Part shown: positions 15,784 to 48,862 of the stretch, in pieces
Layout of the letters: every line of letters begins with the position of its first letter
Numbering within the stretch: the first letter of the stretch is position 1
DNA from: Planomicrobium sp. YIM 101495
GTDB lineage: Bacteria; Bacillota; Bacilli; Bacillales_A; Planococcaceae
Assembly: GCF_009707665.1 (NCBI RefSeq)
Contig: NZ_WLZW01000001.1
Span: 1,488,001 to 1,552,000, forward strand
Reading direction: 5' to 3'
Length of the DNA stretch: 64,000 nt
The notes under the pieces: model-generated
The model's database searches: none
The model's input: the letters and a program-made list of their open reading frames with translations, nothing else
Told to the model about the DNA's origin: nothing
Translations under genes and position numbers: made by a program

Positions 15784-15839
15784 GTTATTTTCTCCTCCCG
15801 CCCTGAACCATCTGGAACAGAGTTATATAATCTATTTTG

Positions 15840-21447: not shown

Positions 21448-21701
21448 GGGTGTCGCATGGGGAAAACGCTTGTGGCTTAAGGACATGGTTCCCGGGTGTT
21501 TCTTAAGTATCCACTGCGTCGCTTCGAACAGGGCTCCCGGAAGAAGCCAAGCTGAGGAACGCTCGTCTTCTTCCTCCGCCCAGTCCAAACCATCTCCTCC
21601 GCTTTGGGTGTGGGTTAATTGTTGGAGAATAATCACCAGTGTTTCATTCTAACGATATTGTTGAGGTAAATATTCGGGCGGCTGACTGCGTAGACCGCTG
21701 G
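21448..21701 (+). repeat. family R structured repeat, copy R1 (chimeric)
   Basis: A 254-bp composite. The first 47 bp match the start of R2 (GGGGAAAACGCTTGTGG to TTCCCGGG), then the sequence switches to the R3 type, which it matches almost perfectly from 21517 to 21707. It looks like recombination between two family members. It ends in the family's 3' hairpin GCGG-CTGACTGCGTAGA-CCGC. Confidence 0.8.
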
Positions 21702-21733
21702 AGTTCTTAGTTGGCGTGTTGAAGAGTGAACTC

Positions 21734-21937
21734 GGGTGCCGCATGGGGAAAACGCTTGTGGCTTAAGGACATGGTTCCCGGGATAAGCTGAGCTAAGAAC
21801 CGCTCATCTTATCCCTCCACCATGTCCAGGCCAGCCACTTCGCTGGGTGTAGGTGAAGTGGAAGTGAGTTGTCGTCGGTGTTTCTTTCTAATTTCAATGT
21901 TTCATAGTTGCTTGGCGGCTGACTGCGTAGGCCGCTG
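21734..21937 (+). repeat. family R structured repeat, copy R2
   Basis: A 204-bp copy with clear nested stems on the plus strand: GTGGCT (21758) with AGCCAC (21833), GGACATGG (21767) with CCATGTCC (21820), GGATAAG (21781) with CTTATCC (21808), GAGC (21790) with GCTC (21802). It ends with GCGGC-CTGACTGCGTAG-type hairpin GCGGC...GCCGC. Confidence 0.85.
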
Positions 21938-21991
21938 AGTTCTAATTTGGTGAGTGAAAGTGAGTAAAGGGCGTCTCATAGTATTTCGCTT

Positions 21992-22176
21992 CGTCGCTTC
22001 GGACAGGGCTCCCGGAAGAAGCCAAGCTGAGGAACGCTCGTCTTCTTCCTCCGCCCAGTCCAAACTATCTCCTACGCATTGAGTGTGGGTTAATTGTTGG
22101 AGAATAATCACCAGTGTTTCATTCTAACGATATTGTTGAGGTAAATATTCGGGCGGCTGACTGCGTAGACCGCTGG
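21992..22176 (+). repeat. family R structured repeat, copy R3 (lacks 5' part)
   Basis: A 185-bp copy nearly identical to the 3' part of R1. Its stem uses different bases from R2 in the same places: GGAC-A-GGG with CCC-A-GTCC, and GAAGAAG with CTTCTTC instead of GGATAAG with CTTATCC. Ends with the GCGG...CCGC hairpin. Confidence 0.85.
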
Positions 22177-22414
22177 AGTTCTAATTTCAGGTGTAGAAAA
22201 GTGAGTGGGAGAGATTCATTTTTGTCGAGTTACTACTTGAGCTGCGTGAGTTACTACTTGGCGTCAAATCGAGCATGAAAACTGAACTCAACTCCTACTA
22301 TACGATGCCTTCTGATCGAAAGCGACGATGGCTGATACGCCTAGATTACCCAGATTCCCAACATTCTATCCCTCTACCGTTATAGAAGAAGCTGAGCCGC
22401 AATGGAAGAGTGAG

Positions 22415-22495
22415 CACGTTGGAGGGGTAAAGCTAAGACGAGACCCCGCAGGTTGCGCAGCAGCCGAGGTGGCTCGGCTCAGCGCCTCTAACGTG
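22415..22495. repeat. GC-rich hairpin element downstream of pyrG
   Basis: CACGTTGGAGG (22415-22425) pairs with CCTCTAACGTG (22485-22495) over 11 bp with one G-T wobble; the interior contains GACCCCGCAGG and GGCTCGGCTC segments. It resembles short intergenic elements I recall from other Bacillales with the GAGACCCCGCAGG motif. Not coding. Confidence 0.6.
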
Positions 22496-22547
22496 GGAAA
22501 CTCTGAAATGGAGGTCGGCCGGACTCTGATTTAGTCAATCCCCTAAT

Positions 22548-45812: not shown

Positions 45813-45878
45813 CAGAAAGGTCGTCCTGAAAAAGACGTGCACTTTCCGCTTGTCCTCGCAAGCATCGGGCTGTTTCTT

Positions 45879-48227: not shown

Positions 48228-48257
48228 ATTATAGCCCGAGCTGGAGGCTTTTTTCAA
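48228..48257 (-). promoter_or_regulatory. promoter of ywiB-argS
   Basis: Minus strand: TTGAAA (48252-48257), 18-bp spacer, TATAAT (48228-48233), about 30 bp before the ywiB start. Confidence 0.75.
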
Positions 48258-48294: not shown

Positions 48295-48500
48295 GGGTGT
48301 CGCTTAGAAAAACGCTCGGGGCTTAAGGACATGGCTCCCGTAATAAGCCGAGCTGGGAATCGCTCGTCTTATCACTCCGCCATGTCCGGGCCAGCCCCTT
48401 CGCTGGGGTGTGGGTGAAGTAGTAGTTTCACGGCAGTTAGTGTTTCGTTTAAATGTTAGTGTTTCATAGTTGTTGGGCGGCTGACTGCGTAGGCCGCTGG
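48295..48500 (+). repeat. family R structured repeat, copy R4
   Basis: A 206-bp complete copy. Stems: GGGGCT with AGCCCC, GGACATGG with CCATGTCC, ATAAG with CTTAT and GAGC with GCTC; then a 3' hairpin GCGGC...GCCGC. The outer stem differs from R2 (GTGGCT/AGCCAC) by a paired change. Confidence 0.9.
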
Positions 48501-48531: not shown

Positions 48532-48737
48532 GGGTGTCGCTTAGAAAAACGCTCGGGGCTTAAGGACATGGCTCCCGTAATAAGCCGAGCTGAGGAACGC
48601 TCGTCTCATCACTCCGCCATGTCCGGGCCAGCCCCTTCGCTGGGGTGTGGGTGAAGTAGTAGTTTCACGGCAGTTAGTGTTTCGTTTTAATGTTAGTGTT
48701 TCATAGTTGTTGGGCGGCTGACTGCGTAGGCCGCTGG
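48532..48737 (+). repeat. family R structured repeat, copy R5
   Basis: A 206-bp copy 31 bp after R4 and in the same orientation, differing from it at about five positions, mainly in the apical loop and one stem base (CTCAT for CTTAT). A recent tandem duplication. Confidence 0.9.
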
Positions 48738-48813
48738 GGAATTTAGAAAGAGATTAAGCATGGCAAAATAAGCGAAATTTTTCCCTCTATTTGTACCGCA
48801 TAGTATTCAGAAA

Positions 48814-48862
48814 GAGGTGGCCCTGAACGTCGATACACGACGTTCAGGGCCACCTCTTTTCT
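48814..48862. terminator. very long perfect-stem terminator of hmoB
   Basis: GAGGTGGCCCTGAACGTCG (48814-48832) and its exact complement (48838-48856) form a 19-bp stem with a 5-base loop. T-rich tails exist on both sides (CTCTTTCT on the minus strand, TTTTCTT on the plus). Confidence 0.85.

Follow-up and report, generated by a model that had tools for sequence, protein, structure and literature searches.

The locus and its repeats

The window, i.e. the whole stretch of DNA that was analysed, comprises 64,000 nucleotides of Planomicrobium sp. YIM 101495 (contig NZ_WLZW01000001.1, forward-strand positions 1,488,001 to 1,552,000) and contains two arrays of a repeat, family R, formed by the copies R1−R3 and R4−R5, respectively (table 1). 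The neighbours of the two arrays encode CTP synthase, a DUF1934 protein, an ABM-domain protein and a receiver-only response regulator, which we infer from its position and likeness to be Spo0F. No transposase or other linked ORF was found among the four flanking genes scanned, in agreement with the original prediction.

All five copies were found where they had been placed, including the arms quoted for the outer stem (GTGGCT/AGCCAC in R2, GGGGCT/AGCCCC in R4 and R5) and for the inner stem (GGATAAG/CTTATCC in R2, GAAGAAG/CTTCTTC in R1 and R3). The description as five copies of a unit of about 205 bp holds only in part: the unit is present, but R1 is a longer mosaic, the hairpin occurs 58 times or more in the genome, and the unit is a module of a larger element, as detailed below. 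The first 49 bp of R1 (21448−21496) match the beginning of R2 at 98% identity, and the remainder, with 91% identity, is R3-like, with the R3-like part lacking its first bases. By eye, the outermost stem is restricted to the R2/R4/R5 subtype and is missing from R1 and R3, so that its presumed compensation, although the arms are as quoted, is a comparison between subtypes.

The composite element that begins with the R1−R3 array extends on to position ~22545, where it adjoins, by eye, the pyrG terminator. This terminator and a promoter before spo0F were also read by eye, with a program scan flagging neither; promoter-like sites in the R1−R3 region numbered 1 against 0.7 expected from shuffles, with no internal enrichment. 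The R4/R5 array sits between a terminator-like hairpin and the promoter-like site of the DUF1934 gene and, in contrast to most R loci, no tail block was found there. The terminator-like hairpin may also serve the minus-strand gene that lies beyond it, although its T run is short on that side. Within the tail block of the first array, a short direct repeat (GAGTTACTACTTG, two copies at a spacing of 21 bp) was observed at 22227−22260.

Table 1. Features of the two R arrays and of their immediate context (positions of the window).
Feature	Position	Strand	Remarks
R1	21448..21700	+	mosaic copy, 253 bp
R2	21734..21940	+	outer stem present (subtype A)
R3	21969..22178	+	without outer stem (subtype B)
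R4	48295..48500	+	subtype A; R5 follows at a period of 237
R5	48532..48737	+	98% identical to R4
R1 hairpin domain	21511..21593	-	99.2 bits, 21-pair model
R2 hairpin domain	21752..21834	-	94.4 bits (covariance model)
R3 hairpin domain	21986..22068	-	104.6 bits (covariance model)
R4 hairpin domain	48312..48394	-	91.3 bits (covariance model)
R5 hairpin domain	48549..48631	-	91.7 bits (covariance model)
Small 3' hairpin of R1, GGCGGCTGACTGCGTAGACCGCTG	21677..21700	+	near-invariant
Tail block of the composite element	22179..22545	+	shared by ~29 other fetched loci; approximate edges
Large palindrome at the end of the tail, AGCTGAGCCG...GGTCGGCCGG	22389..22522		by eye, approximate edges
Promoter-like site TTGAAA-18-TATAAT	48228..48257	-	strong; before the DUF1934 gene, just past the left edge of R4; context
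Terminator-like hairpin	48813..48857	+	20 pairs; beyond R5; flagged on + only; context

Copies and composite layout in the genome

In the YIM 101495 genome, R5 as a blastn query has 67 matches, and a covariance model identified at least 58 hairpin matches at E ≤ 0.01, five of which are the window copies; the latter figure is a lower bound, since 150 of the 1513 first-look candidates were scored. At the 38 R loci that were fetched, which are intergenic as judged from crude ORF calls, R units are found single or in tandem, with one to three units per locus and pairs or triples often spaced by ~237 bp. When R was masked and the flanks were compared, a second block was found after R in the same orientation at 30 of the 38 loci, in partial form at two and missing at six (hand count). 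This tail block is roughly 300−750 bp long and has a large palindrome at its end. R units are, therefore, the left part, and one module, of a longer element of composite build, whose other block is palindromic as well. As expected of a BOX-like repeat, many intergenic copies are dispersed in the genome (58 matches, 38 loci), and the number of tandem modules varies within a larger element.

Near-identical copies are present at different sites. Loci L012 and L017 have module and tail in common over 466 bp at 97.4% identity, and other unrelated sites share long stretches at 93−97% identity. The mean identity among 50 aligned copies, chosen by length among the 65 listed, is 68% with flanking bases included, and for only 9 of 32 array copies is the nearest relative found inside the same array. 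The small 3' hairpin, which recurs at 21914−21937 and 22152−22175, gave no match when used as a query against genome_contigs, a collection from which YIM 101495 or very near genomes may be missing; from this result the module looks private to the YIM 101495 lineage.

Distribution and form in relatives

R5 finds a blastn match in 22 of the 46 genomes of the genus, YIM 101495 included, and among the matches listed outside the YIM 101495 genome the alignments span the hairpin domain only. The exact core pattern was found in 45 stretches of a one-genome-per-species collection, all 45 in Planococcus or Planomicrobium records, and was not present in viral_contigs; among plasmids, nothing matched the R1−R3 array with its tail. 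With a covariance model built from the relatives' hairpins, and at most 33 candidates scored per genome, the hairpin was found in 31 of 151 genomes of the family, belonging to 5 of its 19 genera. The repeat is family-wide, and a count of five copies falls short of its extent.

The elements of the relatives differ in form. Their tandem spacings are 140−156, 216 (e.g. G043) and 241 bp, and they combine the hairpin with a second large hairpin and with inverted ends, TATATAAGTTGAAC, in a MITE-like arrangement. In the 16 elements with such ends, two of which seem to represent a single site present in two species, C precedes TA at 12 of the left and 9 of the right ends (hand count). This feature recalls the CTAG target of IS630, reportedly described by Tenzen and Ohtsubo in 1991 (cited in PMC2170065). 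None of the fetched R loci carries the relatives' inverted ends, and the end pattern, with up to one mismatch, has three matches in the YIM 101495 genome, one of which (L222) is by eye a relative-type element. The same genome harbours other large hairpin elements (L220 and L221, at G000:C1:427795 and 827811) that have the same start, TATATAAGTTGAACTAA, and a different interior, a combination that suggests a superfamily with common ends.

Covariation and folding of the hairpin

Two alignments were used to examine the pairing of the main hairpin. That of the relatives (A1) derives from 60 regions hand-picked among the blastn matches listed, which yielded 68 hairpins; 61 of the 68 were retained by requiring the exact motif AAGCCGAG, which 64 of the 68 carry and which makes several inner pairs invariant, and by merging identical cores, with chimeric 5' arms kept. 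The second (A2) contains 48 of the 50 aligned YIM 101495 copies, two with an incomplete hairpin being omitted. For the consensus fold, the tree-based test and the event counts with their transition rates, the relatives' set was used without three odd hairpins (L172_752, L172_516 and L157_992) and with identical sequences merged, so that 63 were kept.

Pairing is maintained in 96.0% of the cells of the 61 relatives' hairpins and in 97.8% of those of the 48 YIM 101495 hairpins. Both sides of a pair were changed in 53 cells among the relatives, versus 12.0 in shuffled alignments, and in 90 cells among the YIM 101495 copies, versus 31.6; none of 500 shuffles reached the observed value in either set. 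Since shuffles ignore relatedness, a tree-based null was also run in the manner of R-scape. In the resulting all-pairs test the column pair that ranks first belongs, in either set, to the stem (E = 0.0067 for the relatives and E = 0.02 for YIM 101495), and only one stem pair per alignment passes 0.05, the other stem pairs ranking near the top with non-stem pairs interspersed there too. Covariation beyond relatedness, as expected of a structured RNA, was thus found under the tree-based null. The original proposal that the paired changes point to selection on pairing is borne out in both alignments, and it survived the inclusion of more copies in this R-scape-like form, with one pair per alignment being individually significant.

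The hairpin folding of the five window copies on the minus strand is not due to chance, with z-scores from −3.1 to −6.3 for R1 to R5. Other views give a mixed picture, the z-scores of the plus strand ranging from −0.8 to −8.3. The hairpin energies are −39.0, −43.7, −41.0, −40.0 and −40.1 kcal/mol for the minus strand of R1 to R5, respectively, and −22.7, −42.9, −30.4, −36.0 and −31.9 kcal/mol for the plus strand, so that the minus-strand hairpin is the more stable one in all five copies. It also has the more extreme z-score in four of the five, the exception being R2 (−6.3 versus −8.3 for the plus strand). When whole copies are considered, R5 has a z-score of −0.17 on the plus strand, not improving on shuffles, and of −3.45 on the minus strand, and R2 one of −4.30 on the plus strand. 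A result against the minus strand is that, for whole R units, the plus strand has a slightly better consensus fold (−96.0 versus −91.3 for the minus strand), while that of the relatives' hairpins shows the opposite (plus, −57.6; minus, −63.0). The minus strand of the hairpin features conserved purine internal loops, GGA and GGGA, and a conserved A.G mismatch.

Strand asymmetry of the wobble changes

When a G-C pair decays, the outcome may be G.U, in which pairing persists, or A.C, in which it is lost, and the same holds for an A-U pair. Read on the minus strand, the G.U and A.C cells of the YIM 101495 copies are in the ratio 48:4; in the relatives the ratio is 64:10, or 26:10 without the column pair 12-59, where most rows have G.U. 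Counted as events on the tree, G.U and A.C changes are 33.6 versus 5.0 in YIM 101495 and 20 versus 5.6 in the relatives.

Mutation bias was considered as a cause of the asymmetry and rejected. The summed transition rates of the unpaired columns predict a ratio of approximately 1:1; in these columns purine transitions are ~1.45 times the pyrimidine ones in YIM 101495, and in the relatives G>A occurs at double the frequency of C>T. By taking into account the parent pair of each event and the transition rates of the unpaired columns, 20.3 G.U events out of 38.3 would be expected in YIM 101495, where 33.3 are observed (p = 2e-5), and 14.7 out of 25.4 in the relatives, where 19.8 are observed (p = 0.026). 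The bias-weighted control thus leaves an excess that is strong in the YIM 101495 copies and moderate in the relatives, although it weakens the case a little.

The asymmetry is found whichever way R is oriented to the neighbouring genes, with G.U:A.C ratios of 14:2 for copies oriented with them, 26:1 against them and 9:2 in mixed contexts (groups set by hand). The small 3' hairpin points away from the minus strand: plus-strand G.T versus A.C is 36:6, a ratio that becomes 2:6 without the outermost pair, which is a plus-strand G.T in most copies. As to genomic orientation, R is antisense to both genes, i.e. its minus strand is in the gene sense, at 19 of 25 codirectional sites of YIM 101495 (two-sided binomial by hand, about 0.015), with the opposite arrangement at 6 and with 13 of the 38 loci not codirectional or unclear, as tallied by hand on crude ORF calls. 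In the relatives, a set of sites that partly overlaps that of YIM 101495, no clear preference emerged, with 38 '--', 30 '++', 18 convergent and 13 divergent arrangements and 14 in which one gene was not called.

From the direction of the wobble changes we conclude that the main hairpin probably folds as a single minus strand. The proposal of a fold in RNA or single-stranded DNA is upheld as far as selection on pairing is concerned, but the strand with the best-kept pairing is apparently the complement of the one first reported. These data provide evidence, new for a repeat of this type, of selection on the fold of one strand, which is strong in YIM 101495 and supported in relatives.

Mobility

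No candidate transposase for R emerged from the searches made. The YIM 101495 genome gave no match to Y1_Tnp (PF01797), so that it shows no Y1 (HUH) transposase as required for REP/RAYT or IS200/IS605 elements, nor to TnpB-type proteins, reverse transcriptase or DDE_3, the last being present in 1 of the 12 genomes searched. Among the matches to the relatives' ends in 12 genomes, with up to one mismatch, no inward pair was found 0.6−3 kb apart, and thus no autonomous partner with the same ends, of the kind that IS630-type MITEs would be expected to have. Terminal inverted repeats, also expected for these, are present in the relatives and absent from the R arrays; the MITE argument is, therefore, borrowed from the relatives. 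For R, a target duplication could not be made out.

A search for the corresponding site in other genomes based on pyrG matched all 46 genomes, and 30 loci, YIM 101495 included, were fetched and read by eye; one based on spo0F, at a cut that was too strict, matched 3 of 46. In one genome (G012, locus L184), 165 bp separate the pyrG stop from the start of the spo0F-like gene, with no element between them. In three relatives (L175−L177), an apparent coding sequence was observed by eye right after the pyrG terminator, at the position of the R array of YIM 101495.

Some element sites are common to more than one species, a fact that counts against free mobility. Within eight orthologous element pairs, three elements are more conserved than the flanking windows and five are not, a pattern at odds both with a plain parasite and with uniform constraint. 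In L103/L110 and L083/L102, two pairs from Planomicrobium okeanokoites and Planococcus sp. MER TA 32b, the identity of the elements is 97.9−99.2%, versus 85.0−92.5% for the flanking windows, and in one of these pairs the nearest 100 bp outside the element are nearly identical too. Either strong constraint or local exchange may be invoked.

Interpretation

Family R is real, so far unnamed, and of the kind of the modular interspersed palindromic repeats. The reading that we prefer, at a probability of about 0.52 and thus only just better than even, is that R is a module, repeatable in tandem, of a BOX/RUP-like interspersed repeat of Planococcaceae that is non-autonomous, modular and rich in palindromes, and that the hairpin of R is selected as the minus strand. 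Copies would spread from one intergenic site to another, either through transposition in trans or through ectopic recombination, and modules would multiply in tandem through recombination. The hairpin module would be kept by selection as the fold of one single strand, minus relative to R, most probably in the form of RNA made by read-through or transcription of the element; RNA is likelier than single-stranded DNA since no HUH enzyme was found in the YIM 101495 genome. Its stem, stable and with purine internal loops, might help transcripts to be protected or processed. A bolder version, possible but on balance doubtful, is that of a Planococcaceae-wide structured RNA domain of the minus strand, which is amplified in tandem arrays carried by a mobile non-coding element. 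If so, an RNA domain would be copied repeatedly beside genes, where it may be a common processing, stabilizing or protein-sequestering site, and a parasite-like repeat would have become, or would carry, a functional RNA.

A functional RNA family of the minus strand (a non-coding RNA or a cis element), with the tandem copies as RNA domains and dispersal as a secondary aspect, would account for the one-strand covariation and G.U asymmetry of the two alignments, for the conserved GGA/GGGA loops and A.G mismatch, for two orthologous elements being 98−99% conserved across species and for the prevalence of the minus strand in the gene sense at the codirectional sites of YIM 101495. However, this alternative seems rather unlikely in view of the lack of a promoter sign inside the R1−R3 region, the position of R4−R5 upstream of the promoter-like site of the next gene and the lack of a clear orientation preference in the relatives; the high copy number and mosaic structure also look mobile.

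Template-switch (quasipalindrome) correction during replication would change the two arms together, and could by itself keep the arms matching with no structural selection involved. It does not predict, however, that one-sided changes favour minus-strand G.U rather than A.C, as they do strongly in YIM 101495, more weakly in the relatives and in every gene-orientation group, and this explanation is improbable. About as improbable is a signal in double-stranded DNA, namely a cruciform, or a palindrome bound by a protein, that serves nucleoid structure, gyrase or gene insulation. The intergenic place, the palindromes in both modules and the occurrence between genes in every relative orientation are what it would lead one to expect, but a cruciform involves both strands, so that neither is expected to favour G.U, against the weighted excess in YIM 101495 and the 48:4 and 26:10 cells. 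A single-stranded DNA hairpin recognized by an HUH transposase (IS200/IS605, REP/RAYT), with the asymmetry reflecting the folding of one DNA strand, is very improbable: the strand-specific hairpin with conserved unpaired positions and the 16 relatives' elements without a visible long target duplication would suit it, but the YIM 101495 genome has neither a Y1_Tnp nor a TnpB-type match, and the relatives' ends resemble terminal inverted repeats, which HUH elements are not known to have. Integron attC sites were also considered as a candidate and set aside.

Under the preferred reading of a BOX/RUP-like module selected through its minus strand, R is a tractable case for the old question of whether the hairpins of interspersed repeats matter as DNA or as RNA. 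Part of the answer comes, from sequence alone, from the direction of the wobble changes, and the same test is applicable to BOX, RUP, ERIC or bcr repeats. With R, a repeat family so far without a name also enters the annotation of a bacterial family.

Relation to known repeat families

The comparison with BOX is one of layout rather than of sequence, and by this analogy R would be an element that works like BOX. BOX is not known to have its own transposase, and boxB is far shorter than the R module of ~205−237 bp. BOX elements of Streptococcus pneumoniae are, from the part of the source available, dispersed small repeats with strong predicted RNA structure, and about 61−63% of pneumococcal repeat insertions are on the leading strand (PMC3049150). 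Dispersion, small size and structure are thus common to both; R differs, as far as that part of the text goes, in the length of its module and in that compensatory changes and strand asymmetry were measured for it, the word 'compensatory' occurring 0 times there (PMC3049150).

The likeness to RUP and IS630-type MITEs consists of the relatives' inverted ends, with TA often after C, RUP being linked to IS630. R arrays are unlike them in having no such ends, in the lack of a DDE_3 match in YIM 101495 and in having more internal structure. R itself does not qualify as an IS630-type MITE.

Bacillus subtilis contains 190-bp dispersed intergenic repeats, which by description are similar to R in size and intergenic location and come from a related order. 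Also likened by description, and not by sequence, is bcr1 of the Bacillus cereus group, a dispersed structured repeat of 147−167 bp in Bacillales (PMC2267715, source seen in part), to which a title cited there ascribes mobile element characteristics; it differs from R in being called, in the cited title, specific to the B. cereus group.

No account of family R was found in the mainly openly accessible literature on repeats of Planococcus, Planococcaceae or Sporosarcina. The view that R belongs to no known named family agrees with Rfam 15, which gave no match above its curated threshold on R in the window or in five relatives' loci, and none on an R unit in a permissive scan of four YIM 101495 loci. 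Elsewhere in the window, the Rfam scan identified a cobalamin riboswitch at 45868−46049 on the minus strand (113.6 bits) and, just over threshold, an L31-Firmicutes ribosomal protein leader at 15792−15822, also on the minus strand.
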